Source of the DNA: Ischnura elegans
Lineage: Eukaryota > Arthropoda > Insecta > Odonata > Coenagrionidae
Length of the DNA stretch: 64,000 bases
Direction of reading: 5' to 3'
Assembly (NCBI RefSeq): GCF_921293095.1
Contig: NC_060258.1
Span: 8,694,607-8,758,606 of the forward strand
In this document: in pieces, positions 2,821-38,838 of the stretch
How the letters are laid out: each line of letters starts with the position of its first letter
Numbering within the stretch: position 1 is the stretch's first letter
Program-made: the position numbers and the translations under genes
The notes under the pieces: generated by a model
Told to the model about the DNA's origin: nothing
Seen by the model: only the letters and a program-made list of their open reading frames with translations
The model's database searches: none

Positions 2821-2891
2821 ATGACACGTAAAGGAAATCGCCTGAAGTGCGCAGTATGGGGCTGCAACGATAAGACGGAACGCATTCAGAG
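2821..2891 (+). CDS. Gene 1 exon 1: THAP domain N-terminus
   Basis: The ATG at 2821 opens a 23-codon exon ending in phase 2 at a GTGATG donor. It encodes the first zinc pair of a C2CH THAP finger, C10-x4-C15 (CAVWGC). The split codon joins exon 2 to give R-F-P-H-P, a typical THAP segment with the conserved proline. The 5' UTR and promoter were not resolved. No in-frame upstream ATG was seen in the immediate leader, which is AT-rich. Confidence 0.8.
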
Positions 2892-5800
2892 GTGATGTGA
2901 ATTCTTAGTTTATATTGACCTCACCCATTTAGATCGGTACGATGCCAAGGACCTTTGGAGGTCCATTACTTAAAATTGGAAGGTTTTTACTTCCATATGT
3001 GCGGATGATGCTTTAAAATGCATCAATGCCTTGCATTAAAACTTACTATCAAGCTCTGCTCACTTTCACGGCGCTTTGTATTTTATGTTCGTTTTTATTT
3101 GCTTGAAAATCCTTAAAGCTTAATAAATTTGTGTCAACAGCGTCTCGTGTGTAAATGTTTAATCTCGCTGATCTCTCAATAAATAAATGAATGTATGGCA
3201 ATGTCAGTGTCTCATTCATTCATGGATTTTTATTGTTAATGCTCTTATAGGTTTCCTCATCCGAGATCGGATGGGTACAAACGCTTTTGGTCGTGGCTCG
3301 CCCTCTGTGGTAACGAAAATCTCCTCTCACAACATCCCCTGGACATCTACGATAGAAGAAGATTGTGCACAAACCACTTTGCAGACAGTGACTACGCCGT
3401 GTGCAGCAACCGGAGGAAATTGAAGAAGAACGCCATGCCTTCTATAAATTTGCCTCGTAAGTTTCCTAGTGCCTGTAATCTGTTTATTAATTATCGTTTT
3501 AGCTAGACTCTGTGCATTTTATCTTTTGCGTGTGAGCTGGTGTGGCTAAAGCAAGTGGGGGTGAGGAGAGGGAAAGTTTCTCATCACGTGACTTTCCATT
3601 AAGCCCATTTTTTGCAGAGTTCGTCCAACTTTAACTATGTTTATGCTGTGGATGCTATTCACATAAAGGCAACAGACGAATTGAAGGACCTGGAATATTT
3701 GGGGCAACGTGGTAAAAGTTACATCAGGTGTTCCACAAGGAAGCGTAATCAGCCCCCTTTTGTTCATAATTTACATTATTGACCTCTGCTCCTGAATTAG
3801 CAGTAAAATATGTTTATTTGCTGACGACGCAGTCATCTATCTAAATGGCCATTTCCCGGTGGTCGACAGTCACGTTTTTAGCAAAGTTAACAAAATCGTT
3901 ACTTTTCATCGCAGAAACACGGCTCAAAGACGGACTTGATTGCTTGATTGGCAGGAGTGCGATGCAAACAATCATTTTTTGACAATCAGATTGATTGATT
4001 TTCAAATTGCAGTCAAAGTGTCCTTTTTGGGAGGGAGGGCCCCTGCTTGGAAGGTCGAACAGAGGGGTCAGCGAGGGTGAACTCGTCGTGGAAAGGGTCC
4101 AGGATTAGCGACCCTTGGGAGGTCGTACCACGCCCATCCTGGAAGTACCTGATCCATTGCCTCATGAAATGCATATTTTAACCTTTTCGCTACATGTGAG
4201 GAGATGGTTTTTGGAGATTGCTGATAGGGGAGGGGTAGGAGAGAGAGAGAGGATGAGCTAACCTAACGTTGCCAAATCAGGGTTTGCAGTCTAACTAAAT
4301 TATAAAATTCACGCTTTTTTCCAGGTTTTTGATGGTCTAAATTGCATCAAATTCATGGTCTGTAGGTAAGCCATTTTAGGAAGAAATATAGATCACATCA
4401 CATAACAATCACTGGCCGCACGTTAACTAAAAATATAGCAAATGCGATGAACGCCGGGAATACCAGGGTTCCCACTCAACCGTGAAAACCTTAAAACCGT
4501 GGATAAGCCGTGAATTTCGTCAACCGTAAAATAACCTGGAAAAAGCCGTGAATTTCGTCATAAAACTTTTAAAAAAATCTCTCAAACTTTATTGTAGAAC
4601 TACGATAGACAGATTGAAAGAAAAAATCCATGCTTCGATCATCTTACAAGGCAGAGTCATGTGCAGATACGGTCCACGCATTTTTCTGCACACGTGTATT
4701 CGAAAGTGCAACTATTAATTGGTCCGTGTGTGCCATGATAGCACATTGAGCTTAAGCCTGCCATTGGAAGACGTTAACCTTGGCAGAAAATCAGGCGCTA
4801 CTTCTTCACTTCCCTGCTCTCTCAACTTTCCCACTCACACACTTTCAGCCGGACGAGAATTTTGCTAACGATAGGTGATGTCATAAGAAATAGCACTGTC
4901 ATTGCTGAGTTTGCATTCAAGGCATCTAATGTATTTGTTACATTTTAAGTTAACGCATGGCCGATGATAGTTACGTGATCAATATTTCTGCTTAATATAC
5001 CTTATCTACAAACTGTGAATCTGATGACATTCATACTGTGAAAACCTGGAAAAAACCGTGAATTTTATAATGTAGGTAGAGTGGGAACCCTGGAATACAA
5101 ACGCAGCAATGAAAGTGCTCATGTGACCAGAGATGGGCAATATCATGACATGACATGACGCCTTTTTGTAACTGTGTTAGTAGTTATGTTCTTGATGTTC
5201 AGAAATTGCTGGTAATCAGTCTTCGATTCTTTTTGTATATGGCGGTTATGTTTTTACTTGGATATTATGTTATTGCGGAGGTTGGGTGAGTGCCTTTCTC
5301 GGTATGTGATGTTTAAAGTGGGGGTTTTCTTCATATGTCCAGATTGGTGTGATGAGCGTGTTAAGATGGGCAATATCGAAAATACTTGTATTTGAAATAC
5401 GTATTTTCGATACTTTTGTAGTTTTTAATTTGTATCGGAAATACATTTTCTGAGAGTATTTTGTAACGAAAATACATCTAAAGAGTAGTTTGTATTTTTA
5501 AAATACATTCAAAATCTAAATACATGTAATGTTTTTGTGCATAATTAGAAAGAGCGTGCGACGAGATGGCAGGGATCCCGAATGAGTCGGTATTACTATG
5601 CCATCTATGGGACAATAAATTGCCCCTTAATTTTCTTCTGTAACACACGTAGGCGCTTGCAAAACGGAGTCGCGTGTGGAGTAGTTTGCGAAACGGAGTT
5701 GTGCATTGAGTTATTTGTGGAGGGGACTTGTAGAATCTGATGCTGTTCCCAAAGGTGCAGGGGGCATTTTTCTTCATTTTATTTAAGACATTTTGCCATG

Positions 5801-8800
5801 GATAATTGCCAGTTTCCTATAAATACGTTGTAAGAATGTTTTAGCCTCTTATTCTAAAAATAGTTCATATTTGAATTGATTTTAATTTTTTATTAGCTAA
5901 GAACTTCGGTGAAGGCTTGTATTTTGTATTTTAATAGAGTATTTTGAAATTAAATTTGTATTTAGTATCGAAAATACAATTTTTAGAAGTAATTTGTATT
6001 TTGTATTTCAAACACAGATTTTAATAGTAATTTGTGTTTTGTATCTAAAATACATTTGACATGTATTTTGCCCATCTCTGCTTGTGACGTTGCCTATCGT
6101 TGGGAAAATTCAGGGCCGGCTCAAAGTTGCGAGTTGGAAAATGGAGGGTGGGAGGGTAATTAAGAGGTGTCTGATTTCTCGCCAGGGTCAATGATCACTT
6201 TGTTTACAGGTCTTCCAATCACAGCCTTAGATCCCTTGCACGCACACCGATTTCGAACGACCGGCAAAATATCGGCCGTCCACATTCCAATAGTCAGAGA
6301 TGGGCAAAATAAATGTCAAATGTATTTTAGATACAAAATGCAAATTACTGTTAAAATCTGTATTTCAAATACAAATTACAGTGCAACCTCAATATAACGA
6401 CACCCCACGGTGCACCAATAAACACTCGCTATAGCGAATTGTCGCTTTACCGGAGGTGGTGCAAATAATAGCCAATATACCTCATATTACTCCTTTATTT
6501 TTATTTTCTCGCTTGGACGTGTTTGGTGTTTTTTTGGCCACGGTGTGTTCCATCAAATGCTTTCTATTCATGCATCTCACGGACGTGCGGGTATGCTGCC
6601 GACTGCTTTCTGCCGCCCGAGGAACAAAAGAAGATCAAGCATTCGCAAATGCTAATGCCACAATATTTTCACCAAAATTAACTACTTATTTATCGAACGA
6701 CAGTTTACCACATAAATTTGAGACTGAGCACTGTATTAACTTCATTTCTAACAGATCGCTAGCAATTACAGAGATTAAGGAGTCTTGGTGTAAGTTTTTC
6801 CGGCGGTGAAACCCTCGCTATGGTTAGAGCCAACACCAAAAGGGCCTCGTAAAAACGAAATTTTTAACATGCTTATAATAGGATCAATTGACGGTGCATC
6901 GGCTATCTCTCGTAATAGCGGGGGTCTCGCTATAGCCCGTACTCGCTTTAACGAGGTTCCACTGTACTTCTAAAAATTGTATTTTTGATACTAAATACAA
7001 ATGTAATTTCAAAATACTCAATTAAAATACGAAATACATGCCTTCACCGAAGTTCTTACCTAATAAAAAATTAAAATAAAGTCAAATATGAACTATTTTT
7101 AGAATGAGAGGCTCAAACATTCTTGCAACGTAATTATAGGAAACTGGCAATTTGACCATTATCCATGGCGAAATGTCTTAAATAAAATGGAGAAAAATTT
7201 CTCCTGCACCTTTGGGAACAGCGTCAGATTCTACAAGTCCCCTCCACAAATTACTCAATGCACAACTTTGTTTCGCAAAATACTCCACACGCGACTACGT
7301 TTTGCAAGTATACAAGGGCCTGCGGGTGTTACAGAAGTAAATTAAGGGGCAATTTATTGTCCCATAGATGGCAGAGTAATACCGAACCATTCGGGATCCC
7401 TGTCATCTCGTCGCACGCTCTTTCTAATTATGCACAAAAACATTACATGTATTTTGATTTTGAATGTATTTTAAAAATACAAACTACTATTTAGATGTAT
7501 TTTCGTTACAAAATACTCTCAGAAAATGTATTTCCGATACAAATTACAAACTACAAAAGTATCGAAAATACGTATTTCAAATACAAGTATTTTCGATACT
7601 GCCCATCTCTGCCAATAGTGAACAATAGGGTGGTTTCCTATTATTTTTTTATCGCCTAAATCGAAAGATTGTTACTCCTGGAGTATGTATTTCACGCTTT
7701 TAGATTTTTAAATGACGATAACTATTTTTCGCGATGAAATGAAAAGCGAAAATTTTCAAGCGCACGAAAACGCAACGGGTAAGTATGAATGCTGGGAAAA
7801 ACTCCGCGTGATGTCTTTCTGCTTCCCGCTGCCGCGAGTGAGAATAACCAATAACACAAGTGAGAATCGTATAGAAACTAGGCCCCTGTGACGTCAGGTG
7901 GAGTGGCACCGCATGGGCGCCAGCCTGGCCTTTTTCAAATGCGGTTAAAAATGGCCATTAATATTCATCTAAACCGGTATTTCTCAAACATCAATGCCTT
8001 TCGTTTACTTTGATGAAGGAAACTGCCCTATTGATCAAAAAAAATTTTGTTCGGAATATCTTACTCTGTAACATCCATGGTTGTGTTTCAGTGAATTTCT
8101 GACCAGCTTGTATAAATGTTTTGCAAACATAGGCTTATTATTTAGTTTTTGTTTTCCTTGCGTTGCAGCTCCCTTGCTAACGCCTCATCCACAGCAGGGG
8201 GAGTTTTGTGCTCCATCAATGGCAACGGCCATCAAAGTCGAAGGTGAGTACCCTGCGTGCAGCATGTGATAAAGCAAGATCGTCATGTGGAAACCATGAG
8301 GTCATGAGGACATTTTATTTTTTATAAATAATTCCTTTGAAGCTACTCCCATTATGGTAATAAATAAGACGAGTATCCCTCCTAAAAATGCCAAGAATGC
8401 ACTATACAGGGTGTCCCATTTATCTTGACCACCCGAAATAACTTTTTGTCCAGATGCAAATTCAAAAATGTGTCAAACAAATTTTCATTAGCCATCAGGG
8501 GGACATTAATCAGCATGATTGCCTTCCTAGTAGCTTTGTTATTTACAAGGATATGAACATCGGTATGTCTTTTTTAAAGGGAACCCTCTATTTTTTATTC
8601 GGCAATTCATTTCCTCTCCTAAAGACTTATTCAAAAATGTAGAACAGTGAACCATTAACATAAACACAGTGTTATGAAAAATGACTCACTCTCTAGCGCT
8701 TAGTGCAGGTACGCGGGTATTGGAACTACTCTACTTTGCTGACGTTGACGGTGAACAAATGAAAACATACAGTGGAACCTCGTTAAAGTGAGTACTGGCT

Positions 8801-11800: not shown

Positions 11801-14800
11801 GGGGGTTTTGGGGGATAAAATTCCCCCTCACCTCATAGAAGTTTTTAAATTCTGGCGTAGGTTTCCGCGGCGTTGCTCATGGTCAGTGCTGATTTTTGGG
11901 TTCCTCAGCCGCGTTGGTTGTTTTTTCGTCAGCTTCGATGTGGTATCGCTCTTCACCAACGTGCCCATTGCAGATTCCGTGGACATAGTGAAGAAGCTGA
12001 CCAGCTCTGGCATCCCGAAGGACTTCCCCAAGCTTGTGGAGCATTGCCTGAAAAACACCTGCTTTCTGTGGAATGGCAGTTTCTATGAGTAAACAGACGG
12101 AGCAGCGATGGGATCGCCCCTGTCCCCTGTGATGGCCAACCTCTTCATGGAGGACTTTGAGGCGAAAGCTATCGAGACATATCAGAAGAAACCCAAGTTG
12201 TGGCTGCGGTATGTAGATGACACATTCGTCGTATGGCCACATGGTGCAGAAGAGCTTGACAAATTCCTTTGTCATCTCAATTAGCAACACCCAAGAATCC
12301 AGTTTACCATGGAGAAGGAAGGTGAAAAGGGCGCACTCACGACCATCCGAGCAACGCCAGGAGGAGGAATTGACCAAGCCCAACGCACGACTGACTATCC
12401 CTTACATTGCGGGAGTATCGGAAAGAATTTCAAGGATCCTGAGAAAACACAACGTGGTCACAAGGTACAATTGCGTGACCAAGATCCACAACCTAGTACC
12501 TGGACTGAAAGACAACATTCCACAAGACTTATGTGAAGGTGTCTACAAAGTGCTTACATAGGAGAGGCATGCCGAGGAATGGCGACCAGGATAAAAGAAC
12601 ATGCAAGAGCCACAAAACAGAAGCAGCTCCACCTGTCGGCCATTGCAGAACACGCGCAGAGTGAGGCAGGTCACAGTATAGACTTCGAAGGAACGAAGAT
12701 GGTGGCCAAGGAGAATCGCTACTATCCAAGGCTGATCAGGGAAGCGTTGGAAATACACAAAAACAATAATTTCAACCGAGACCAAGGCTATCCAATCAGC
12801 AATGTTTGGAAGAGGGTATTGACCAAACAGCGTCCGGCAGGCAGCGGGACCGAGCCATATAAGGCGGCCAAAAACGAGAACTTCTCACCTTCGACCTGAA
12901 GACGGGAGCAGGATGGCTCCCGAAACTGTTGTCATCCGAAAACAACCAACGAGGCCGAGGAACCGAAAATCAGCACTGATCAGAAATTTTTAAGTTTAAT
13001 CCATTTTATTTAAATGGGTTGATATTGCTAATACAATGGTGTAAGGATGAATAAAATATTCCTCAGAAAGCCGTAACACTCACTGTTTTAAACCATTTGT
13101 CTTTAAAATTTCACAATTTATTAATCTCGTACCTATCGCTTATCCTGGTGGGTATACTATATCCCCATACACTCCGGTATTAGTTGCACCTAATCCCCCC
13201 CCCCAGCCTTAATTCCTAGCTACGCCCCTGCCTATCACTAAAACCTTCCTATAGTGGACCTTCATGCATCAAATTGCCCAAATTTTGGTCCCCTCCATTA
13301 CGATGTAAAGAGGTTTTGCTGTACAGGCGGTCCTCGACTTTCGTACAATTCGCACTTTCGTACGTTCAAAGTTGACACCTTTTACTCGACTTTCGTACGC
13401 TAAATTTGGACTTTCAGACGTTGGTCTGTAATTTTCTTAAAATTCCCGCTATGTTTATTGCGCATCCCAACATTCAATTGTTTCAAATTGCAGTATCGGC
13501 AGTATATGCGAACAATACGAACGTATTTAATGAAGAGAATTGTTGGTAATTGACTCTGATCTAGGTGATTTATTTGGGAGAGAGACTGCCTGCTATAGGC
13601 TCCTTTATCAAGAGAAGAAGAAAGCCTTCATTGAAGATATTTTTCAAAAGAAGTTGACTAGACATCATCGAATAGCTTTCAATAAAACTAGTAAGACCTT
13701 CTTTCTAATTGTGTTTTTTTCGTTTGAGTGCTGTTTAATCATGTAAACCTTCAGCAACGATATTGCACAAAATATCACCTGAATTCCGTTTGTCTTTTTT
13801 GAATAACATGCGGAATATACGCGATCACGAATGTCACCTGCCAAATATCGAATTTTGGTGTAAAAATTAAAAGGTATCCAGAGTGTGGGTTCAACGAATA
13901 CATTTTGTTATGCTACTTGATATGTCCTTTTATTTATAGTGGACGTAATAAGTGGAATGTCAACTTAAACGCCAAGAGGAAGTTTCACTCGATAGCCAAC
14001 GGAGTTCTTGTTTTTTAAACTTTTATTTGCATTTTCTGGGTATTTTCGAAATAAATTAGATGATTTGAGGAGTTTTATTAACATATTATTAAAATTAAGT
14101 CAATTGAAATGAATTCCGTGAAAAAAAAGGTTTTAGTACGTAAATTCCGCTCTTTTGGAACGTAACCCCTAATTAGTACGGAAGTCAATGGTTCGACTTT
14201 CGTACATTCGACTTTCGTACAAGTTTTCGGGAACGCATTGTGTACGAAAGTCGGGGACCGCCTGTAATTCCGTCACAAGTGGAATTGCCCAACTATATTG
14301 CAGATAAGAATTGGCTTACGCTCGTATTTAACTCTTCCTTTGCTTCTTTTTAGGTGGTGGTAATCCTGTGGTTGACATACCAGAGCCGAGTTCGGGTGTC
14401 CATTTGATGGAGAATCAGACTAGTGTAACTACGGGACAATTACTTGGCTTGGGGGACAACGTGATTGCCGAATCATCGACGACCTCAGCCCAGCTGTATG
14501 CATCACTTTTTGGCAGCATCCCCAAGGTCTTTCCCAACAATGAATCCGCAACGTCCACGCTCGGCATGGAACCAGTTCTTGTTGCCCCTGTGTGCGAAAT
14601 GAGTGGGCCGCAACAGTCTCTGACTGAACCCATGGCCATCGACATTGTTGTGCCTGCCCCTGCGAAGAATGTTGTCCCAGAAATTCCTCCAAATGTGTCT
14701 TCATCTGCCTCTGTTTCACCCGCCCAGCGTGGTCGTAATGTTCCAGGTAGTGAAACCAGTGGTTCTACTACCACTGTCTCAACCTGTGCTTCGGACAGTG

Positions 14801-26800: not shown

Positions 26801-29800
26801 CGTTTGTAAGCGATTACTGTATGCAGTATAAATGCCGCGGGATGCCCACTTGTGGCAGTAAATTTCGCGTGCCCTCCCTTAGCGAAAAAACTGTTGAAAT
26901 TTCAACAGTTAATTGGAACCATTGTTGCATCCAACAGTAACTGTTGAATTCAACAGTAAATTGGGACCACTGTTAAAACTAACTGTAACTGTTAAAACTA
27001 ACCATAACTGTAAACTCTGACTGTAACTAATAAATCCAAAAATTATTGATGAATTCAGATGTTACCGTTGGATTTTAACAGTTATATTTGGATCCAACAG
27101 TTGTCCCAATTAACTGTTGAAATTTCAACAGTTTTTTCGCTAAGGGTCTGGAGCAAAAAACCCCTCGCGATCTTTTCCATGTTCACCTCTGGGGTACCGA
27201 CGAGACTGCGTTTACAAGAAAAGCAAACAGGAGAATTTTAAAAATACGTCACTGAGGGAGAAACTCCCCTGCCTGCCGCTTGTTTTTGACTTAGGGTTTC
27301 AGATGACTGACTAACGCTGAAAACCAAGGCCACTCAGTTCCCCTTGGACTTGCGACTGGTAAAGGGGAGGGGGGAAGATAAGAAGTTTGTGTAAGAGGCG
27401 CACCCCCATTTTCGGCGGCAAATTCTGGAAAAAAAAGGTGCGCCTCTTACACGCGCTTGTACGGTAACCAGAAGATTCCTTTTCCATCATAATGTTGAAA
27501 TTGAAGCATTATTTTACAAAATTCACGAAACAATCTGTGACTCTTATCAACGTGTTGATTCCCTTCCTCTCTTTATAGGTGGTGATGGGGCAACCAGTGG
27601 TGACCTCTGCTGATGGGGAGGCAGGGGTGCTTTCGGATCGCGAGCATTCTGTGCAAGTTGATGTTCCGACTACGTCAAGAAAAGATGAACATCAGTGGCA
27701 AGTCAACGCTGAAGGGGAACAGCCGGACCATGATATGTCTGCACACGAAGATTTTAACGATGATGTGAGTTTACGAAATTCCCTCAGAAGTCATAAAGTC
27801 ACCCTTCACGAGTTATTCACAATAGCAATGACAGAATATTATTACTTGTCTGGAAATATGTACAGTAAAACTTTGATTTTACGCAGTTGGAGGGACCGAA
27901 ATATGGGCACTGTGTAAATTCAAAGTCTGTAAAATCAAGGGTTTGTGTTGAGGAGGAGTATATTTTTCAGGATAACACTTGCTCCTTATTTTTAGAAGGC
28001 TTAGTTATACACTTTTGTATAGTTCTGATTTAAGCCAGATCAGGAACCAGAAAAAGTCTCATATCTGAGGTTTTATGGTAAAAGAGCATGAAATCCTCTT
28101 CACTCGCCTCAGATATATGTTTCCTGGATTCAATTACTCAAAAAAATGAAGCCTAATAATCTTAATTACTCACAAGCAACTCCATTGATGACGTGTTACC
28201 TAAAAAGAAACAACGTTGCATTCCTGAACAATGTTTCCAATGGTTGAACAATATGGTTGAATTGCTAGCACTAACATTACTTCTGTTTCCCAGGAGAAAT
28301 GTCGGAATGGTGATACTAAATGCTCGCAGAGAAGCTAATTTTCAAAAATATTCTCATTAAAAGCAGTTTTCAGGAAATCCGTTTAATCACCTGCAGACAA
28401 ACAAAGATTGGAGATCGAAGAAATGAGGTATATGAGGATAGTCATCCAAATTAACCCCATTAACAGGGAGCAAAATTTTGCTAATACATCAGAAAGGCTT
28501 TACACCAATGTAGGCCTGGGTTCAAGTCCCGGCAGTAGCAGAAACTTATCAGAGATGGTCCTATCCCTACTTGAGTGCAATGTGGAGGGCACTTCCAGTG
28601 CACCACTCTGTCCAGCAGATGGGACGTTAAGTCCTGGTCCCTTTGGAGCCTCTCATTACAACCTGGCTAATGCCAACATAGGCCCTTACTTCATGGCGCT
28701 TATGACCTCAGCTGTCGGTTACCTCCTTCCAAATAGCATACCATAATGCGGAGCATACAGGACCCGGGATATTCGGAAATTTAGATTTTTCCTGTGTTTA
28801 GATCACTTTATTTAAGTGATCTACAGTAGAACCTCGGTTATACGACCCTCAGTTATACGATGACCTCACTTATACGCCGATTTTTTTTGGTCCGGTGAAT
28901 AACCCCTTATGAAACCATGTATTTCCAATCCCAGTTATGAAACTTTTCACCTATATGACGACCTCGGTTACGAAACGCATTTTTCCAGTCCAATGAGATA
29001 AAATACCTCACTTATACGACTTTTCCGAGGAACTGCTCTACGAGAAGATTGCGGTACGCGATTTTAGTCACAGAAGCGGGGGTAGTATAGATATGTCAAT
29101 GAAGAATAACAAGTTTTATACGGTGCAACCTCGATATAACGACACCCCACGGTACACTAATAAACACTCGCTATAGCGAATTGTCGCTTTACCGGAGGTG
29201 GAGTAAATAATAGCCAATATACCTGTTGCGAACAGATATACAGGAACAGGAGTGGTGCAGCGACAGATAAACATCTATGCGATAAACGTAAGCATAAATC
29301 CTGGCAAAAGGCGATTTTTTTTTCTCAGAAGTTCCCGCAGATTTGAATGGACAAAACCACCCGAACAAAGCTCCTTATAACTCTTCTTCGTCTGCATTCC
29401 TTGGGCACTTTTGTTTTTTTTTTAATTTTGCAGAGCGAATAGGAAGATAAATTAATTTCGACACACTCATATTACTCCTTTATTTTTATTTTCTCGCTTA
29501 GAAGTGTTTGGTGTTTTTTTGGGCATGGCGACTGCCATCAAATGCTTTCTATTCACGCAACTCAAGGACATACGGGTATGCTGACGACTGCTTTTTGCCG
29601 CCCGAGGAACAAAAGAAGATGAAATAAATTAAAAGTGTGGGGGCCTCACCATTACATATTACTCCATTACATAAAAATACTACTCCACTAAATTTCTATT
29701 ACATTTTACATCTAGAACACACCTGATGACACCATATGGTGCGGCTCCCACGCTTTTATTTTTAGTGAACACATTATAGATTACCCACGTTCTTTGAATT

Positions 29801-32800
29801 ATCATTTCAAAAATTTATCAGTGAAAATATTACGGATTACCCAGGTTCTTTGAACTATTCATGTAAAAATTTATTTTTTACTTTTTAGTCCATTTTTTGA
29901 AATATTTTTTTATTACTTGTTCCAAGCGAAATAAAAGCGTGTTTTTTTTTTAAGTTTTTATTAAAGAATTATTTTTTTAACCCGCTTGATGAATTCAAGC
30001 GCCCATCGACTCGTAGTTATCGTAGTTTGTATCAGTCTATCTCACCCTTGAGAAGTGTGAACATTGTGCAGAGTGATCTGTGATGCGTGACCCAAGGCTC
30101 TTCCTCTCTTCCAGACTGACCTGAGCAGCGAAGAGGATTTCGGGAAGACTGAGGGTGAGGATTTCCCAGTGCACGAAGAGATGGAGAGACCACAGGTTAA
30201 GCCGCCGAGAAGGATGCCTTCGGATGAGGACAAGTTTGCGTGCAGGACGTGTGGGGCAGAGTTTATGTACAAGAACCACTGGAAGGATCACGTGAGGGAG
30301 CACGAGAAGGGATATCCTTTCCCATGCACTTACTGCGACAGAAGGTGAGGTACAAGTGGCGTTCATCCCTCAAAACCAAAATCCCAATGCTAATAGGGTG
30401 GTTTCCTATTATTATTAGTACTGCCAGTGAATTATGGAACGCGCCCTGGGTTTCACCGCGTGGATGATCTTTGCAATGACAGTTTCTCCAGTATTTCAAC
30501 CATTTGATATTGTCGATGACCTGAAGACCCCGGTTGGGATACCGGAGAAACTGTCGTCGCAAAGAAAATCCACGCGGTGAAACCCAGAAACATGGAGACC
30601 ACAAAACTTGGGTCTCTTTGTGATTACCGTATTTATCTGAATGCAGTTCCACATTCCATGCATTCCCCATTTCTTTATTTAAAAAAAATGCCCATGGAAA
30701 ATGTAAGGGATGAGACTATAGTCTGCATGAAGTTTCCTTTGCATTTTTTTATATTTTTTCCCAAAGCTAAAGCCTCAAAATTATGGAGGGGATTGTATTC
30801 GAAGGGCGACTATATTCAGAGAAATACCAGTTATCTCCATCCCATTGTACATGATCTTAGGTAATGTTTTTCCTATCTATTCAGTGAGTCCTCGTTCTAC
30901 GTCACCCCGTTTAACGTCATTTCACGAATACGTCACGAAAATTTTGAGACCGTCATTCGTTCATCGCACCTTCGCTTTGCGATAACGTCAAGGCTTTTCG
31001 CGCGAGAAAAAACACAATGCGGCGGGCATCGCAGGTTGTTCGTTTTGTGGGCCGTAATATAGTCAGTCTAAAACAAGTGTAAAACGGTGTGTTTATTGTT
31101 AATTACGATTACGTTTTTAGCTAATTTTTCTACAAAATGAATTCTCAGGTAGGTGCGCAAGGTTTTACTTGACATAATGGTTTTCAGGATCCTAAAAAGT
31201 GATTTCAAGGAATTTTTCCGTGTATAACTCGGAGTTTTTTGTCGTCACTTTTTTCGCCATGTTCACAATAATTTTGGTTCCTGTAGCTGCGACGATGTTT
31301 CAGCGATGATGATGCCCAGGTGATGTTCGCCCGGGCGACCATCATAGCGAAGCTGAAAAGCAAATGCTGGAAGATACAAAAATGGAGATAGATTTACGTC
31401 ATTGCTGCCATTTTCTTCGATGAAGACAGGAACTCGTATTAATGCCATAGTTCGGCATTCCCATCGTAAAAAAATGCCCCAGATAGGATACGGTAAAATT
31501 TTTTCGCATAGGAATTGTGAGGTCAAGGAGCCGATATTCACTTTTTACATTGTTTCCTATGGGATATTATGTTTCGATTAACGTCATTTCGTTTATCGTC
31601 ACATTTTTCAGGAACTGTAAGTGACGTTAAACGAGGACTCACTGTAGTGTATCGGCCATATTCGCTTATTTCACTTGGGCTCAGCATGCCCCGAAACGCA
31701 TGTTCCTGTCTCTTTCCTGCTATCGTGTGAGTGTGTATCTTTCCTTTCATCCTTGTGTCCTCGTCCATTCTTTCTGTGGGCGAGTGATGAGCTGCCCCAG
31801 TGCCATCTATTGGTTACTCTTGTGGGCCAAAGCAAAGGGAGTTTCCTGTGTATAAACCCCCCCTGAAATCATGGTAAATCTAAGCGTCCCGGTAGCTCAA
31901 CTGGTAGAGCACCTGGCCGGCAACCAGGAGGTTCTGGGTTCGAGTCCCAGTCAGGCTGCATTTTTACCCTCTGATTTCTGGCTTTTTCCATCTACCACAG
32001 CACCGTTGTCCTCGTCCTTTTTCTATTACATGTTCCCAGTAAGTACAGTGCGGTAATAATAACTCAAGTGATTATGGAGGCTTCCGCGGTTAGTTGATTG
32101 GTGATGGTTTTCCGGGTTTACGGCGGTGTAAACCCGGAAAACCATCACCAATAACTCAAGTGTTTTGTATATGAGTTTTTTATCCTGTTTCAAATAAAAA
32201 CTTTCACTGAAAAAATTTGTTTCTTATTGGAAATGCACAATATTAAATATAAGTTTTATAACAGTTTTCGTCACTTTTTTCCCCCTTGTTCACAATAATT
32301 TTGGTTCCTGTAACTGCGTTCGGGTTCTGGGTTCGAGTCCCAGTCAGGCTGCATTTTTACCCTATTATTGTTTCCTATGGGATATTATGTTTCGATTAAC
32401 GTCATTTCGTTTATCGTCACATTTTTCAGGAACGGTAAGTGACGTCAAACGAGGACCCACCGTACATGATGGTACGCATTGTCTTTTCCGCAGGTACAAG
32501 GACCTGCAGACGTTGAACTCGCACATAATCACGCATTCGGACTACAAGCCGTACGAGTGTGAGCTGTGCTCCAAGCGCTTCCGTCGTCCCCAAGATCTTC
32601 TGTTTCACAAGAACAACCACATCGGCTTGCGGCAGCACCTGTGCGCAGACTGTGGCAAGGCCTTCGCGGGCCTAGCGGGCTTGCGTCGCCACGAGAGAAT
32701 GCACAGGAAGAAGCGTCACTTCATCTGCAATGTGTGCCACAGAGAGTTTTCTACGGTAATTATTTGTTTAATTGTTGTCTCAGTTATAATATTGGTGATA

Positions 32801-35800: not shown

Positions 35801-38800
35801 TTTTTGGTGATGAAATAAATAAACAAGTGAATGCTTCCCAGAAATACATCTCGCATCTCGTTTGACGCAGATTCTCGGAATGAAGAAGAACAGTTCAGAT
35901 ATGGTCCTTACTCTGTGGCTCAACTTTTCGTAAAGTTGTGGGCATAAAAAACACATAAAAAGCTGACCGAAGACAGCCTGATCACAAGACGTAAGACGAT
36001 ATAGTGGCAAGCCACAATTCCAGTCCTTATGAATGAAAACTTAGAAAGAATTTATTTCAAAGATACGAGGAAATTATTTTTGTAATTGTTTTATTTATTT
36101 CATTTGGGTGTCACGCCCCCCCTGGACTTTCTCCACGCCCCCCAGTTTGGGAATCCCTGTTCTAAAGGAATTGCAGACGATAATCTGGACACTTATAAAG
36201 TCATAAAAAAAACACATACAAAAAAGGAAATGGATATGCCAAATTGTTAATGCAATCATTAAAATTTGAAAAATAACAACCTACAGTGGAACTTGGTTAT
36301 AACGTCATCAAAGGGACCAGAAGATTTTTAACGTTATATCCGAGTGACGTGATAAAAAAGCAGCCTTAAAATCAGAGTGAAAGGACAAAGTAAAAATGCA
36401 AATGTTCTGCTATATACAACACTGTTTGTTGAAATCTACTCGTACGTTGGAATATGTAAAATAAAAAAACGTTAATAAAAAAATGATATTCACAATTAAA
36501 TATATTATAGCCTAATAAAAATCTTACTTTACTGTCGAAAAAAATCTGTGATCTTCTTTTGAACGGTCCTTTTGTAGGGGTGGGAAGGGATAAGACCAAG
36601 GTATGCTGGACAGCCTCTGCTCCCTCCAGACACCAATTAAACAAAATAGTTGCATCCCGTCACCAGCTCAACGTCCAGCTTGTGACCTGTGTTAGCTTTT
36701 GATGTTTCTACACATGGTTTCTATGAACTTTGGGACATAATACAATCACACAACCACTTTTGCAACCTAAGAATCGCAAAATTTTTGACGCTATAACCGA
36801 GCGTCGCAATATTTGTTGACGACATAAACGGGTTTTCGTACAACATAAAATGTTCAATTTTGGCTCGTCTGTATAAAATGAGACGTTAAACCCAAGTTGA
36901 CGATACAGCCGATGCCGTTACAACCAAGTTCCACTGTATACCAGCAAAATTAATTTTTCATTTTTTTCATCCTTATTGGCCATCACTGCCTCTGAAATGA
37001 CATCTGTGACATTTTTTGACGCAGGTGGAATGATTATTGCATTTAAAATAGAAAAAATTCGTACATTTGCCGTCTTATAATTTTAATATTTTCCCCATGC
37101 AAAACTATGACTCACCCTACATTGAGGCTCATGGGCAGAAGCAGATAATTCAGGAATTTTCCCAAGTCTCATCGCTAGAAAAGCCTATGTGTCTGCTGGA
37201 AGATTACCTTTTTTCACCCTTGCCTTGAGATGTTCATCTACAAGGCAAAACGCGAGAGCTTCCATGAACTCCATTCTTGGTCTTCGATGGATTTTTTTCA
37301 ATATTCTTAGCTACAAAAATCTATGATCTACCAGATCAGAAAATTTTAGCTCAATCTGCCACCCGAAGGTCGTATAGTCTTGGTAGTCACACCATTCACA
37401 GTAAAACCTCTATGTTGTGAACCTCTTTACATCGTAAACCTCCATACTTCATACCACCCCTATTGTCCCATCAGATTTACATGTCAATTTAAAGGCAAAC
37501 CTCTTTGTAGTGAACCTCTTTATCTCGTAAAACCTCCACATACCAAGGAGACACCCCCGAGACGGCCTATCTACCTCCATAAATTGTACCGAGACAACAA
37601 AAGACCTTTCATGCAGGCACGATTACGTAAATGGAATGACATTTTCAGCAATAAATTTTTCACTTTTTTTTCTTATATACCTTATTATGCTGTAATTTTC
37701 ATGTTAATCATTAGTTATGGCCATTTTGTTCCATATGAGAGCATACATAACAGTAAATAAGAAAAAAGGTATATGTACTTAATTATCCTAATCATTTTAA
37801 GTGACTGTTGAATTAAGAGAGATCACATCGTTTTCTCTCGAGTCATTGTAAAAATCATGCGATAGCGCTCGCTTTCTGTAATTGTTAAATAATAAATATA
37901 TGTTCACTGATGCATGCATGTTTGTTTAAACACATAAATGTAATGGTTTAAAAGACTGTAGTGCCTTTCATTTCCAAAGGATATTGTTGGGTATTCCCCC
38001 CCCCCCTCCTTCGGCGAGTGTCGTCGCCCTCTGACCTTTCCAAGGCCCGGCCAAGTCCCTTTCGGCTCCTTTCTCATGATCTCCGCCAAAGGGACTCGAC
38101 TCTCGCCCTTTTGAAGTGAGGGAGTGCCGTTACTCGAGGGTCAGTAACCCTTATACCCTAGCATCCATGCCTATGCCGACTGCGTGGGTGTTTGTCAGTG
38201 TTCAACCAAAGCCGGGAGCGTGTGGACGCGGAGTTTCGGCGTGTGCTTCTCCGCAAGTTGCGTGCGAAATAAACTGAATTCGATTGAAGGTGTCCTTGCC
38301 TTTCATTTCATCATAACCCGGGGTACACGTCCCCGCGCGCACTTCTCCTGAGCCACCTTCGGGCCGGATTGCACGAACAGATATGAAAAAATGGTGCCTA
38401 TCACTGAAACCTCTCTATATTTTGGTCCCCTCCATTACGATGTAAAGAGGTTTTACGGTATCACTACGAGAACAACGGGAACCAGTGGTTCCCCAACCAG
38501 TATATTTTCAACGTCCTTGAATACACCCGCCTTTACTATTCTAAGATGGTCTTCTGACTTCCTCTCCGCCTTCTCTTCCTCCACAGAACCACGGTTTGAA
38601 GTCTCACATGGAGGTGCATCAGAAGGACGAGATGTTCACATGCCAGCTTTGCAGCAAACAGTACGCTTCGCGCAGGAAATTGGTCAAGCACCTCAACTAC
38701 ATGCACGGACCGAAGAGAGAATTCCCGTGCGACGTCTGCAACAAAGTGTTTGCGTGCAAGGAAAACCTATCGCACCACAGGAGGCGACACTTTGGCCTGC

Positions 38801-38838
38801 CGCCTCGCATTCGCAAACCTCGTGTCCCTGTCAAATAA
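2821..38838 (+). CDS. Gene 1: THAP-ZAD-C2H2 zinc-finger protein (9 exons, complete)
   Basis: Exons: 2821-2891, 3251-3456, 8169-8243, 14354-15369, 22316-22486, 27579-27764, 30115-30344, 32494-32755 and 38587-38838. All borders are GT/AG and all phases agree. The sum is 2469 nt, giving 822 aa ending in TAA. Domain order: THAP (C10-x4-C15, FPHP 25-28, C63-x2-H66, AMPSINLP 85-92); acidic Ser/Thr/Pro-rich linker; ZAD (C422, C425, C468, C471); second linker; seven C2H2 fingers, from C618/C621/H634/H638 to about residue 808. THAP and C2H2 modules bind DNA and ZADs usually dimerise, so a nuclear, sequence-specific regulator is inferred. Its targets cannot be read here. Exon 3 holds an in-frame ATG (8219) that could start a THAP-less isoform. 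Alternative: separate THAP and ZAD-C2H2 genes. The compatible phases across exons 2, 3 and 4 argue against this but do not prove one transcript. Confidence 0.82.
3251..3456 (+). CDS. Gene 1 exon 2: THAP domain C-terminal part
   Basis: Acceptor CTTATAG, donor CTC|GTAAG; enters in phase 2 and exits in phase 1. The frame is open over 206 nt. It carries FPHP, W37/W39, then C63-x2-H66 followed by F (LCTNHF), and ends with AMPSINLP, equivalent to the AVPTIF box of THAP domains. Together with exon 1 it holds all the zinc ligands, C2CH. A longer overlapping frame from 3187 is a shadow in the wrong frame. Confidence 0.82.
3457..4463. other. Intron 2 of gene 1, left part
   Basis: No gene recognised. 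4318-4460 resembles 63690-63870, an unnamed older repeat whose copy at the right edge lacks the insertion at 4464 and so supplies the empty site. Confidence 0.45.
4464..5088. mobile_element. hAT-like element, CAGGGTTCCCACT ends
   Basis: Terminal inverted repeats CAGGGTTCCCACTC and GAGTGGGAACCCTG, flanked by GGAATAC on both sides. The related sequence near 63825 shows the uninterrupted site. Repeated internal motif CCGTGAATTT. No coding capacity. Confidence 0.7.
5131..6080. mobile_element. hAT-like element, CAGAGATGGGCAA ends, copy 1
   Basis: Starts CAGAGATGGGCAAT, ends GCCCATCTCTG; flanks CATGTGAC and CTTGTGAC match in 7 of 8 positions. Rich in AAATAC/GTATTT subterminal repeats. The part from 5364 is an inverted relative of 6295-7611. 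The stretch 5145-5363 is not shared with copy 2. Frames inside (for example 5478-5777 minus) are repeat sequence. Confidence 0.7.
6295..7611. mobile_element. hAT-like element copy 2, with pogo-like insertion
   Basis: Perfect 8-bp target duplication CCAATAGT at 6287-6294 and 7612-7619. Ends CAGAGATGGGCAAA and GCCCATCTCTG. Interrupted at 6379-6964. Opposite orientation to copy 1. Confidence 0.85.
6379..6964. mobile_element. Tigger/pogo-like element P2, full copy
   Basis: CAGTGCAACCTC at one end and GAGGTTCCACTG at the other, flanked by TA. About 585 bp, no transposase. Subterminal motifs CGCTATAGCGA recur at both ends. Nested in the hAT copy at 6295. Confidence 0.8.
7624..8032 (+). mobile_element. 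M1 MITE, internally deleted copy
   Basis: AATAGGGTGGTTTCC start and GGAAACTGCCCTATT end are intact, but the middle third is missing, giving 409 bp against about 665 bp in full copies. Confidence 0.8.
8169..8243 (+). CDS. Gene 1 exon 3: 75-nt symmetric linker exon with internal ATG
   Basis: A pyrimidine-rich acceptor (CCTTGCGTTGCAG) and a strong GAAG|GTGAGT donor bound an exon of exactly 25 codons, phase 1 on both sides. It can therefore be included or skipped without a frame change. It encodes a Pro/Gln-rich piece followed by MATAIKVE. The ATG at 8219 has a purine at -3 and G at +4, so it could be an alternative start giving a protein without THAP. Which use dominates cannot be told from sequence. 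Confidence 0.7.
8404..8660 (+). repeat. Repeat-like fragment starting ACAGGGTGTCCC
   Basis: The opening (ACAGGGTGTCCCATTTATC) resembles a motif common at ends of arthropod dispersed repeats. No second copy is seen in the window, so the limits are uncertain. Confidence 0.3.
8770..8998. mobile_element. P2 element, truncated
   Basis: Begins CAGTGGAACCTCG after TA and matches the P2 copies at 6379, 32853 and 62983 for about 230 bp. It then passes into a repeat shared with 25430-25995. Confidence 0.7.
9065..9480. repeat. Dispersed copy of the 25.4-26.0 kb repeat
   Basis: Shares long blocks (GATCCGCTATCCCCCTCC, GACGCTTTCCTCTTCTCC) with two tandem units inside the hAT-like element at 25098-26759, so it is probably a truncated relative of that element. 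Confidence 0.6.
9481..9994. other. Intron 3 of gene 1, no gene seen
   Basis: Nothing coding recognised. The end (TTCGTGCAAATACGGTAT) resembles the edge at 62965-62980, hinting at an undefined element. Confidence 0.3.
9995..10535 (-). mobile_element. M1 MITE, left end truncated
   Basis: The GGAAACCACCCTGTT right end is present. The left end starts inside the TTTCATCAAAGAAAACG block without AATAGGG. A segment near 10085-10100 is deleted. Confidence 0.75.
10536..11171. other. Intron 3 of gene 1, unassigned AT-rich sequence
   Basis: No coding frame, no repeat partner in the window. Confidence 0.3.
11862..12985 (+). pseudogene. Penelope-like retroelement, broken RT and endonuclease
   Basis: The first frame reads SFDVVSLFTNVPI (RT motif A region), is stopped by TAA at 12090, then reads MGSPLSPVMANLFME and YVDD (12210-12221, catalytic motif C). 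A frameshift follows near 12285. A later frame, 12579-12899, reads RIKEHARATK and onwards, like the C-terminal part of a Penelope GIY-YIG endonuclease. Codon use and GC are unlike the surroundings. At least two disabling lesions, so not functional. A hammerhead-like string follows at 12896-12933. Confidence 0.82.
12896..12933 (+). ncRNA. Hammerhead-ribozyme-like core at Penelope 3' end
   Basis: CTGAAGA (CUGANGA), then a hairpin GGGAGC/GCTCCC, then GAAAC, four bases, GTC. This is the order of the conserved core of a hammerhead with a very short stem III, as reported for Penelope-like elements. The bases flanking the core pair weakly (TTCG with CGAA), and stem II has one unpaired base, so activity is doubtful. 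Confidence 0.4.
13324..14264. mobile_element. Tigger-like element P3, full copy
   Basis: CAGGCGGTCCTCGACTTTCG at one end, GAAAGTCGGGGACCGCCTG at the other, long inverted repeats with repeated ACTTTCGTAC. 941 bp, matching 59112-60042. A 68-aa frame inside (13540-13746) is shared by both copies but matches no transposase I know. It starts where P4 ends, so the two share the boundary. Confidence 0.85.
14354..15369 (+). CDS. Gene 1 exon 4: acidic linker plus first half of ZAD
   Basis: Acceptor TTCTTTTTAG, donor TTCCAG|GTGAGG. Enters with two bases completing a phase-1 codon and exits in phase 0; 338 full codons. Residues 118-410 are a low-complexity Ser/Thr/Pro and Asp/Glu-rich linker, probably disordered. 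The last 37 residues start the ZAD with C422-x2-C425 (KLCRLCF) and a segment ending RFQ. The closely similar exon at 52009-53009 confirms the borders. The reading frame extends past the donor only to 15420, in intron. Confidence 0.9.
16095..16164 (-). repeat. tRNA-derived SINE head
   Basis: On the minus strand the core begins CCTGGATAGCGTAGTGG and ends GGTTCGATTCCCGGTCCAGG, with A- and B-box-like segments and closing acceptor pairing. The anticodon arm is imperfect (loop CCGGAAA), and four related copies cluster here, so it is a SINE and not a tRNA gene. Confidence 0.7.
16380..16545 (+). repeat. tRNA-derived SINE unit, diverged
   Basis: Same family as 16978-17143: ATGAGCCTCGGTATAAT, then the tRNA-like core, then GGGAATTTTTTCT and GGCAATTCTTGTAT. 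B box altered (GATTCCCAGTTGAAGGG). Confidence 0.65.
16978..17143 (+). repeat. tRNA-derived SINE unit 1 of tandem pair
   Basis: Begins TTGATGGACCGCGAGGGCC, tRNA-like core 17047-17116, ends CTCATGGCAATTCTTGTAT. Nearly identical to the unit at 17277, about 297 bp downstream. Confidence 0.8.
17277..17443 (+). repeat. tRNA-derived SINE unit 2 of tandem pair
   Basis: Near-exact repeat of 16978-17143, core 17344-17413. The spacer (17144-17276) ends in CTCGCGTTGCCATCC, the same SINE-associated sequence seen at 16230-16260 and 20222-20250. Confidence 0.8.
17515..18490 (+). pseudogene. LINE 3' end (RT tail), split by M1 MITE
   Basis: The reading EQLRMDILKSK and DRYGN, resuming after the insertion with a sequence matching FFPQTIKDF at 23935, is the C-terminal tail typical of non-LTR retrotransposon RTs. 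The MITE at 17670-18334 interrupts it. Comparison with 23791-24078 gives the empty site. Confidence 0.6.
17670..18334 (+). mobile_element. M1 MITE, full copy with known empty site
   Basis: AATAGGGTGGTTTCC to GGAAACTACCCTATT, 665 bp. The uninterrupted LINE reads GGGAATTCG. The filled site reads GGGAAT...ATTCG, so at most two bases (AT) are duplicated. Confidence 0.88.
18491..19266. other. Intron 4 of gene 1, unassigned
   Basis: No gene recognised, AT-rich. The short frames at 18788 and 19084 have no family resemblance. Confidence 0.3.
19267..19768 (-). pseudogene. RTE-type LINE, C-terminal fragment
   Basis: The minus-strand frame contains RMMKIKWIDRVSN, VLRRVGEKRSLL and VGHILRHDGL, the C-terminal signature of widespread RTE-like reverse transcriptases. 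The 3' end is a short ATGATG tail at 19267-19275. 5' truncated. Confidence 0.75.
20095..20506. mobile_element. TTAA-flanked MITE, copy 2, with SINE fragment inside
   Basis: TTAA at 20091-20094 and 20507-20510; matches 250-521. A piece of the local SINE (CCATCCTTGATGGACCGC and onwards, about 20222-20302) splits it. Confidence 0.6.
20685..20960 (-). pseudogene. Degraded RTE LINE 3' end
   Basis: CATGAGTCGGCAGTCCTAAGA and the following bases resemble the 3' ends at 19270 and 23512, but the coding part is eroded. Confidence 0.4.
20989..21130 (+). mobile_element. M1 MITE, left-end fragment
   Basis: AATAGGGTGGTTTCC start, matching M1 to TCAAGCGCGCGA, then lost. Confidence 0.75.
21343..22179. mobile_element. 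TTAA-flanked element with CCTTT ends, complete copy
   Basis: TTAA at 21339-21342 and 22180-22183. Ends TCCTTTCGAGACGG and, reading inward from the right, ACCTTTTCCCTAC. Related copies at 32827-34089, 34132-34483 and 44494-45065. Repeated palindromic ACGTATATATACGT. No transposase. Confidence 0.75.
22316..22486 (+). CDS. Gene 1 exon 5: second half of ZAD
   Basis: Acceptor GTGTTTCAG, donor AATAAG|GTGAGT; phase 0 at both ends, 57 codons. It supplies the second zinc pair, C468-x2-C471 (GVCEHCL), followed by a basic/acidic helix (residues about 475-500) typical of the ZAD dimerisation helix. The exon has a near-identical partner at 57361-57531. The ZAD intron splits the two CxxC pairs. Confidence 0.9.
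22560..23230 (-). pseudogene. Tc1/mariner-superfamily transposase remnant
   Basis: Minus-strand frames give WFQQDGATAHTARASM, LREQFP and, in another frame, TLQHLKNNIQEEIANIMP and NGGRHL. These are the catalytic and C-terminal segments of a common mariner-superfamily transposase. Several frameshifts; lies in intron 5 directly after exon 5. Confidence 0.82.
23791..24078 (+). mobile_element. 5'-truncated LINE with 8-bp target duplication
   Basis: Duplication GTACTCTT at 23783-23790 and 24079-24086. Encodes EQLRMDIF, DRYGNSFFPQTIKDF. This copy lacks the MITE found in its relative at 17515-18490. Confidence 0.7.
24267..24526. mobile_element. hAT-like MITE, second copy
   Basis: Flanks CTTCCATG (24259-24266) and CTTCCATA (24527-24534), 7 of 8 identical. 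Relative of 1943-2191. Confidence 0.72.
25098..26759. mobile_element. hAT-like element, TAGAGATGTGCGAATA ends
   Basis: Perfect 8-bp duplication CTATTAAC (25090-25097, 26760-26767). Subterminal arrays of ATTCGA repeats at both ends. The interior has two tandem units of about 290 bp (25437-25720, 25727-25995). No transposase frame. Confidence 0.85.
26877..27146. mobile_element. Foldback MITE with CAACAGTT repeats
   Basis: Both ends read CCCTTAGCGAAAAAACTGTT inward and continue as inverted repeats for about 40 bp. The interior is packed with ACTGTT / AACAGT motifs. 270 bp, non-coding. Confidence 0.75.
27579..27764 (+). CDS. Gene 1 exon 6: acidic linker between ZAD and fingers
   Basis: Acceptor CTCTTTATAG, donor GATGAT|GTGAGT; phase 0-0, 62 codons. 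The product is a charged, Asp/Glu-rich linker without recognised domain. Linkers of this sort between ZAD and fingers are usual for ZAD proteins. Assignment rests on splice signals, open frame and phase; there is no paralogous exon in the window to confirm it. Confidence 0.75.
27861..27955. mobile_element. Tigger-like end, CAGTAAAACTTTGATTTTACG
   Basis: Shows a CAG start and a short inverted relation with AAAATCAAGGGTTT. Related to the stretch ending ATCGAGATTTTACAG at 56526-56545. Fragmentary. Confidence 0.4.
27956..28480. other. Intron 6 of gene 1, unassigned
   Basis: AT-rich, no coding frame, no repeat partner seen. Confidence 0.3.
28490..28745 (+). repeat. tRNA-derived SINE fragment with conserved-looking body
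   Basis: GGGTTCAAGTCCCGGCAGTAG is a B-box-like T-arm, followed by a body with GGGACGTTAAGTCCTGGTCC, a motif I know from SINE central domains shared widely among invertebrates. The A-box half is degraded. The 112-aa frame over it is not a gene. Confidence 0.5.
28824..29090. mobile_element. Tigger-like element P7, left part
   Basis: CAGTAGAACCTCGGTTATACG start with repeated TTATACGAC units. Right end not found before the P2 fragment at 29119. Confidence 0.55.
29119..29625. mobile_element. P2 element, truncated and diverged
   Basis: TACGGTGCAACCTCGATATAA start; shares CGCTATAGCGAATTGTCGC and the TGTTTGGTGTTTTTTTGG block with 6379-6800. Right end missing. Confidence 0.65.
29626..30114. other. 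Intron 6 of gene 1, right part
   Basis: Very AT-rich with poly-T runs, then the pyrimidine tract and acceptor of exon 7. Nothing else seen. Confidence 0.35.
30115..30344 (+). CDS. Gene 1 exon 7: C2H2 finger 1 and start of finger 2
   Basis: Acceptor CTCTCTTCCAG, donor AGAAG|GTGAGG. Enters in phase 0, exits in phase 2. After an acidic stretch it encodes finger 1 (C618-x2-C621-x12-H634-x3-H638) and the Cys pair of finger 2 (C646, C649). The intron falls just after C649-D-R, so finger 2 is completed by exon 8. Confidence 0.88.
30392..30416 (+). mobile_element. M1 MITE terminus, 25 bp
   Basis: Only the AATAGGGTGGTTTCCTATTA end survives, 48 bp after exon 7. Confidence 0.6.
30448..30585. repeat. 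Long palindrome, Penelope-type terminal remnant
   Basis: Arms GGGTTTCACCGCGTGGAT and ATCCACGCGGTGAAACCC, with further pairing CAGTTTCTCC / GGAGAAACTG. Between them CTGAAGA (30521-30527), hairpin CCGGT/ACCGG, GAAAC (30547-30551), GTC (30556-30558), the same order as at 12896. Confidence 0.55.
30882..31644. mobile_element. Tigger-like element P1, full copy
   Basis: CAGTGAGTCCTCGTTCTACG and TTAAACGAGGACTCACTG inverted ends. About 760 bp, matching 46322, 50451, 56548 and 60141 copies. Non-autonomous; short frames inside recur in all copies and are not genes. Confidence 0.85.
31886..31960 (+). repeat. tRNA-Ala(GGC)-like SINE head or tRNA pseudogene
   Basis: D arm GCTC...GAGC, anticodon stem CCTGG/CCAGG with GGC at 31919-31921, T arm CTGGG-TTCGAGT-CCCAG. 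The acceptor stem pairs poorly (GTCCCGG against TCAGGCT), and its T-arm plus tail is duplicated at 32322-32362, which favours SINE or pseudogene. Confidence 0.5.
32071..32149. repeat. Hairpin insertion with 13-bp direct repeats
   Basis: AATAACTCAAGTG occurs at 32058-32070 and 32150-32162. The insert holds a near-perfect palindrome (GGTGATGGTTTTCCGGGTTTA and its complement) with an 8-base loop. Resembles Penelope-type terminal palindromes. Confidence 0.5.
32262..32465. mobile_element. P1 element, right part, with SINE fragment
   Basis: Matches P1 internal and right-end sequence to GTCAAACGAGGACCCACCG. The SINE T-arm fragment 32322-32362 lies inside. Ends 28 bp before exon 8. Confidence 0.65.
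32494..32755 (+). CDS. Gene 1 exon 8: C2H2 fingers 2-5
   Basis: Acceptor TTTTCCGCAG, donor TCTACG|GTAATT. It finishes finger 2 (H662, H666), encodes complete fingers 3 and 4, and the Cys half of finger 5 (C730, C733). GC content is clearly higher than in the flanks. An 84-bp fragment of a CAGTGAGTCC element ends 28 bp upstream of the exon, and a duplicated repeat block starts 27 bp downstream. Confidence 0.92.
32827..34089. mobile_element. TTAA-type CCTTT element, reverse copy with P2 inside
   Basis: Starts AACCTTTTCCCTACTG and matches the complement of 21343-22179, apart from the P2 insertion. Stops at 34089 without its CCTTTCGAGA end, where a duplication of its own left flank begins. Confidence 0.7.
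32853..33435. mobile_element. P2 element, full copy, nested
   Basis: CAGTGCAACCTCG to GAGGTTCCACTG, 583 bp. The related sequence at 34150-34165 lacks it (ACGTATATATACGTG), showing a TA duplication. Confidence 0.85.
34132..34483. mobile_element. TTAA-type CCTTT element, internally deleted
   Basis: AACCTTTTCCCTATTG start, CATCTCGAAAGGGTT end. The middle (from AACCCTCCGAA onwards) is deleted. Left flank identical to that of the copy at 32827. Confidence 0.7.
34487..34576 (+). mobile_element. M1 MITE, left-end fragment
   Basis: AATAGGGTGGTCTCC and about 90 bp of M1. Confidence 0.7.
34805..36159. mobile_element. hAT-like element, CAGGGGTTCCCAAAC ends
   Basis: Perfect 8-bp duplication TTCTAAAG (34797-34804, 36160-36167). 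Ends CAGGGGTTCCCAAACT and AGTTTGGGAATCCCTG. An M1 MITE sits inside. Confidence 0.85.
35005..35661 (+). mobile_element. M1 MITE, full copy
   Basis: AATAGGGTGGTTTCC to GGAAAATACCCTGTT, nested in the hAT-like element 34805-36159. Confidence 0.82.
36284..36937. mobile_element. Tigger-like element P6
   Basis: CAGTGGAACTTGGTTATAACG and GTTACAACCAAGTTCCACTG, flanked by TA. 654 bp, single copy in the window. Confidence 0.75.
36938..37398. other. Intron 8 of gene 1, unassigned
   Basis: No coding sequence or repeat partner recognised. Confidence 0.3.
37399..38458. mobile_element. P4 element with solo LTR inside
   Basis: CAGTAAAACCTCTATG and GTAAAGAGGTTTTACGG; relative of 11172-13324. Split by the LTR at 37985-38379. 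Confidence 0.78.
37985..38379. mobile_element. Solo LTR with 5-bp target duplication
   Basis: TGTTGGG...GAACA with GATAT duplicated at 37980-37984 and 38380-38384. The P4 copy at 11757 gives the empty site (GGATATGAAAAAATGG). GC-rich; contains AATAAA near 38268. No internal retrotransposon genes. Superfamily undetermined. Confidence 0.8.
38587..38838 (+). CDS. Gene 1 exon 9: C2H2 fingers 5-7 and stop codon
   Basis: Acceptor CCTCCACAG. It completes finger 5 (H746, H750), encodes fingers 6 and 7, then a basic tail (PPRIRKPRVPVK) and TAA at 38836-38838. The frame open from 38391 is upstream and in another frame. The AATAAA overlapping the stop could serve as polyadenylation signal. Confidence 0.92.
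   Translation, partial: NHGLKSHMEVHQKDEMFTCQLCSKQYASRRKLVKHLNYMHGPKREFPCDVCNKVFACKENLSHHRRRHFGLPPRIRKPRVPVK

Follow-up and report, generated by a model that had tools for sequence, protein, structure and literature searches.

Sister THAP-ZAD-C2H2 genes in the damselfly Ischnura elegans, with THAP heads that seem to group with different P-element-like transposon families

The locus described here raises the question of whether a THAP domain, a ZAD and an array of seven C2H2 zinc fingers are parts of one protein and, if they are, where the THAP head came from. The window, by which we mean the whole analysed stretch of 64,000 nucleotides, lies on chromosome 13 of Ischnura elegans (C13, 21,320,372 bases), and the genome searched comprised 1,722,721,009 bases in 110 contigs. 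Positions are those of the window unless a contig is named.

Two sister genes of one plan and their inverted copy

An earlier note, made from the letters of the window, had proposed a single gene model at 2821..38838 (gene 1) with nine GT/AG exons, matching phases, 2469 nt and one stop. The model was reproduced exactly and confirmed to the base, with an 822-aa product, a single terminal stop, GT/AG borders at 8/8 introns and compatible exon phases:

2821..2891, + strand: exon 1, start codon and first Cys pair of the THAP (C10, C15), phase-2 donor; no change in the copy described below
3251..3456, + strand: exon 2, remaining THAP (C63, H66), phase-1 donor
8169..8243, + strand: exon 3, linker of about 25 codons from the THAP to exon 4
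14354..15369, + strand: exon 4, linker and first half of the ZAD (15262-15369)
22316..22486, + strand: exon 5, second half of the ZAD (22316-22429)
27579..27764, + strand: exon 6, linker
30115..30344, + strand: exon 7, linker, C2H2 finger 1 and start of finger 2
32494..32755, + strand: exon 8, remainder of finger 2, fingers 3-4 and start of finger 5
38587..38838, + strand: exon 9, remainder of finger 5, fingers 6-7 and stop

The ZAD and fingers 2 and 5 are interrupted by introns and are rejoined exactly on splicing in the model. Four donors of exon 5 keep the frame open; among them, the donor at 22486 has the best sequence and brings the total to 2469 nt. Nine open candidate exons of 45-300 nt that fit the phases and exceed the limits set for splice scores lie between exons 2 and 4. 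Exon 3 came first among them under matrices trained on the remaining junctions of this gene and its sister.

The first 94 amino acids of gene 1, scanned alone, cover the whole of the Pfam THAP model PF05485 (1-87/87) at 42 bits, where the cut-off is 23.9 (E 1.6e-10), with the C2CH ligands C10-x4-C15...C63-x2-H66. In the 822-aa model PF07776 (zf-AD) reaches 49.5 bits against a cut-off of 28 (profile 1-74/75), the ZAD having two C-x2-C pairs, C422-x2-C425 and C468-x2-C471; zf-C2H2 passes as well, and gene 1 has seven fingers in its C-terminal array, as does gene 2 (below). The Pfam check that the earlier note had suggested for the assembled protein therefore came out as anticipated for zf-AD and zf-C2H2, but at E<=0.01 the THAP was missing from the listing for the whole 822-aa protein and passes on the first 94 amino acids alone. 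By sequence, the THAP has a weak match to solved THAP structures (best E 0.025), and the closest solved chain to the ZAD is that of the Grauzone ZAD, 1pzw (E 0.0018). Given these ligands, profile matches and fingers, gene 1 is predicted to be a member of the THAP domain proteins and also of the ZAD-ZNF family.

Downstream lies a tandem sister, gene 2, which starts at 41463, encodes a predicted 825 amino acids and has the plan, order and phases of gene 1 without a separate exon 3:

41463..41521, + strand: exon 1, start and first Cys pair of the THAP
42055..42329, + strand: exon 2, remaining THAP, phase-1 donor
52009..53009, + strand: exon 3 (homologous to exon 4 of gene 1), linker and first half of the ZAD
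57361..57531, + strand: exon 4, second half of the ZAD
past the window, to C13:8776747: four further exons (linker, C2H2)

The THAP of gene 2 matches the Pfam model with 47.1 bits (profile 1-87/87), and a counterpart of gene 1 exon 3 was not found in gene 2 (best E 0.021, on the minus strand). The dS between the two genes runs from 0.13 in the last exon up to saturation in the THAP and the first fingers. The sisters thus appear to be an old pair homogenised in patches, and the pattern suggests that the ZAD and last-finger exons, though not the THAP, underwent gene conversion between the tandem genes.

The locus with both sister genes is also present as an inverted, collinear duplicate at about C13:9.32-9.40 Mb, 0.6-0.7 Mb away. 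The copy of gene 1 (C13:9365268-9400987) has 9/9 exons free of gaps, every GT/AG kept and all 822 codons open, and differs at 63/2469 coding bases. A haplotype duplication was considered and set aside as a matter of judgement, given the distance, the inverted orientation and a number of coding differences higher than expected for alleles. The last three exons of gene 2 show no difference from their copy, which suggests recent homogenisation between the inverted arms. Since a diverged copy preserves all nine exons and a tandem paralogue repeats the architecture, the gene 1 model goes beyond chance; the single gene of the earlier note appears well supported by this conservation, and 2821-38838 very probably represents one protein-coding gene of THAP-ZAD-C2H2 architecture, with full-length splicing as predicted. 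The tandem sister, the inverted copy and the transposon affinity of the THAP exons (below) go beyond what the earlier note had proposed.

The introns hold repeats of their own. Between exons 2 and 3 of gene 1, 5364-6080 and 6295-7608 form a long inverted-repeat structure, probably a foldback or MITE-like element, and the second intron of gene 2 contains a THAP repeat piece:

5364-5659 and 7313-7608: inverted-repeat arms, 96%
5656-5811 and 7153-7308: inverted-repeat arms, 92%
5804-5991 and 6965-7152: inverted-repeat arms, 94%
5995-6080 and 6295-6380: inverted-repeat arms, 92%
43053..43316, + strand: THAP repeat piece, unrelated and outside the gene model

The last of these was tried and rejected as an exon of gene 2, being a repeat with at least 144 genome matches (144 of 150 scored candidates, E<=1e-5), 48 of the 144 rows having at least 80% identity by a hand count in which some rows are partial and two are the locus and its copy. 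ZAD matches also number at least 146 genome-wide (146 of 150 scored candidates; 900 in a first look). Among the ZAD matches listed, most lie on chromosome 13 and contigs C14-C17, and several are divergent pairs about 1.6 kb apart:

C14:8738653(-) and C14:8740251(+)
C14:8905652(-) and C14:8907270(+)
C14:11571751(-) and C14:11573369(+)

The ZAD matches on C13-C17 could reflect either an extensive expansion of the ZAD or a repeat that carries one. A search of the plasmid collection gave 0 matches.

Origin of the THAP heads

In the genome searches with the THAP exons, 17 of 74 scored places matched the gene 1 query and 16 of 53 the gene 2 query, and the matches other than the genes and their copies make up three groups, or families:

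Family A: C10:39.3, C1:159.2 and C3:4.9 Mb
Family B: C2:116.0 and C13:20.7 Mb
Family C: C13:18.9, C7:34.5, C4:123.3 and C6:120.4 Mb

At the one locus scanned in each family, Pfam transposase domains lie downstream of the THAP. Families A (at C10) and B (at C13:20.7) have the N part of the P-element RNase H and the GTP-binding insertion, B also having the C part of the RNase H, and family C (at C13:18.9) has the N and C parts of the P-element transposase RNase H; the P-element HTH model falls slightly below its cut-off in A and B. By eye, similar transposase frames were seen at the C2, C7 and C1 loci and none was recognised at the C3 locus, the C4 and C6 loci having been read over 300-400 bases only.

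Over exon 2, the gene 2 THAP is 73-74% identical to the two family C rows compared, and the gene 1 THAP is 48-53% identical to family A, 45-51% to B, 41-42% to C and 44% to gene 2. Over exon 1, 19 of 20 amino acids are identical between gene 2 and the C13:18.9 element; at the remaining residue the element has lost a Cys ligand. In the ML tree of the THAPs, built from 12 rows and 82 columns of one genome with four rows lacking exon 1, gene 2 groups with family C (99/99) and gene 1 with family A (92/94, under the star threshold). The THAPs of the two sisters thus do not seem to be each other's closest relatives, each grouping instead with a different family of P-element-like transposons, and we consider it probable that the heads stem from two lineages.

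Gene 1 and gene 2 are best read as host-transposase fusion genes whose heads record at least two acquisitions or replacements, so that the head would have been gained independently in each sister or swapped in one of them, and we infer that the THAP passed from transposon to host. One domain would then come from a transposase and the remainder from the host, as the definition of a fusion gene has it. Between gene 2 and family C the synonymous sites are saturated and dN is 0.18-0.20 over 66 codons, which argues that the head is not a recent insertion; in a sister pair that is old and patchily homogenised, either two captures or one capture and one replacement could have occurred. The locus itself would not be classed as a P element, given that no transposase RNase H domains were found beside the THAP exons. 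In tblastn searches, three transposase pieces (from families B and C, none from A) had no match in the copy and, in the extended window, just two at chance level (E 0.34 and 0.45).

It could instead be argued that the THAP was gained a single time before the tandem duplication, the transposons having taken theirs from host genes or the short sequences misleading the tree. The small size of the alignment, only 82 columns, would favour such a history, as would the age and patchy homogenisation of the pair and the identity of only 48-53% between gene 1 and its nearest family. However, an AU test rejected a common clade of both genes' THAPs (delta lnL 26.0, p-AU 1.1e-5, the clade having been named after the identity table was known), and the elements share the THAP, the phases at the exon boundaries and the transposase, which makes transfer from element to gene the simpler course. 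We therefore regard a single gain as doubtful, and retain the reading of two fusion genes with heads acquired or replaced at least twice.

Constraint on the joined exons

Another possibility is that two adjacent genes were misjoined, namely a short gene of exons 1-2 with the THAP, followed by a ZAD-C2H2 gene beginning at the ATG at 8219 or in exon 4. In gene 1 an ATG at 8219 and another at codon 18 of exon 4 could indeed serve as starts, repeat-holding introns of 4.7 and 6.1 kb part the THAP from the remainder, and the full-length transcript of gene 1 is predicted rather than observed. However, exon 3 differs between gene 1 and its copy by 6 synonymous and 0 replacing changes (P 5e-4 to 1e-3), so that the changes ahead of the ATG at 8219, 5 of the 6, are all synonymous in the THAP frame, for which the chance would be 0.001-0.005 if this part were untranslated. 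In gene 2, the first in-frame ATG of the linker/ZAD exon is codon 311, within the ZAD itself, and since none precedes the ZAD, an intact ZAD with an ATG start requires an upstream coding exon. A genome search with linker and ZAD (E<=1e-5) gave matches for 9 of 105 scored candidates, made up of two exons at each of four loci and one weak match; 4/4 of these loci have THAP exons upstream, all with intact frames, Cys/His ligands and splice sites, and the order and phases are shared by two old paralogues and by both copies. The synonymous changes in exon 3, the position of the ATG in gene 2 and the THAP exons upstream at four loci thus make two separate genes improbable, and one joined gene is the reading we keep, although isoforms of gene 1 that lack the THAP and start from either of the two ATGs are possible.

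The other parts of gene 1 differ from the copy to unequal degrees. Amino acids 1-117 show seven synonymous changes and one replacing, the ZAD 3 and 0, and the C2H2 part seven and two; the linker of exon 4, with 10 synonymous and 16 replacing changes (P 0.17-0.26), appears nearly unconstrained, and exons 1-2 are uninformative with just 2 changes (1 synonymous, 1 replacing). Gene 2 has an open frame in both copies, with 12 synonymous and 9 replacing changes over the whole gene. Exons 1-2 account for 5 and 4 of these, the replacing ones at amino acids 92, 99, 104 and 111; the Pfam THAP match (amino acids 6-84) has 3 synonymous and 0 replacing changes, so that all four replacements fall beyond the THAP.

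A reading of the THAP exons as transposon remnants in decay, upstream of the ZAD genes by position alone, is more improbable still: although THAP matches are abundant (at least 150, from 150 of 150 scored candidates over the E 0.001 threshold; 2278 in a first look) and a THAP repeat piece sits in an intron of gene 2, the frames, ligands and splice sites of the THAP exons are intact at 4/4 loci, the amino acid identity of the gene 2 THAP to two family C rows (73-74%) at saturated synonymous sites argues for long constraint, and three transposase pieces from families B and C found no match above chance nearby.

Proposed role and comparison with known systems

In proteins of these families the ZAD serves for dimerisation, the C2H2 fingers recognise a specific site and the THAP makes contact at another. 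The 822-aa product of gene 1 would act on transcription or chromatin as a C2H2 factor of seven fingers, its THAP at the N-terminus and its ZAD in the centre; in it the ZAD would join two molecules, presumably by dimerisation, and the C2H2 array would recognise one DNA site, its presumed target. The THAP would bind a second site, perhaps one resembling those of the parental transposase, and this contact could tether the factor to dispersed elements or bridge two sites. By analogy with the families, the most likely role would be control of chromatin or transcription with two DNA-contacting modules per subunit, and the THAP may be directed at P-element-derived sequences. We lean slightly towards viewing the sister ZAD-ZNF pair as a site of repeated uptake or swap of P-element THAPs, whose heads may steer ZAD-dimer regulators to or against the source transposons. 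On this view two adjacent genes that share much of the body and differ in the head would amount to a natural experiment on the function of the head, and the gene 2 intron that already holds a THAP repeat is where a next swap could take place.

Odonata are an insect order very distant from Drosophila. The earlier note had not recognised the union of THAP, ZAD and C2H2 as an existing architecture, a novelty ruled out by D. melanogaster CG6689 and CG10431, which the available text of PMC9810180 gives as ZAD-ZNF proteins that also carry a THAP; in CG6689 it lies at the N-terminus, encoded by the first two exons. According to the same text, its authors see these THAP domains as having evolved de novo inside the ZAD-ZNF family. 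Apart from that paper, no relevant report of THAP with ZAD was seen by title in the literature searched; the term THAP is absent from PMC7655104, and ZAD is unmentioned in the available parts of the surveys PMC10027918 and PMC12062965. As far as the available description of the two fly proteins goes, gene 1 is like them in carrying THAP, ZAD and C2H2 in one protein and like CG6689 in its N-terminal THAP from two first exons, and the damselfly case differs in that two adjacent sister genes both bear a THAP, apparently from two P-element lineages.

Host-transposase fusion genes of tetrapods were reportedly treated by Cosby et al. in 2021. In the available part of PMC8616336, DNA-binding domains of transposases are fused to host regulators in tetrapods, with P element and Kolobok among the sources. 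The present genes resemble such fusions, as there described, in that a transposase DNA-binding domain is predicted to be spliced onto a host regulator, and differ in that the host is an insect ZAD-ZNF gene and two sources seem to occur within one tandem pair. If this family took up transposase THAP exons repeatedly, in flies and, as a separate event, in damselflies, this would be an insect counterpart of the capture of transposases in tetrapods. With P-element-like transposases the genes share a THAP spread over two exons, phase 2 and then phase 1 (in the copies readable for both), whereas transposase domains were not detected in the fusion genes. The kind of gene is therefore known; what is new, within the literature searched, is its odonate member, the constraint upon it and the presence of heads of apparently different origin on sister genes.
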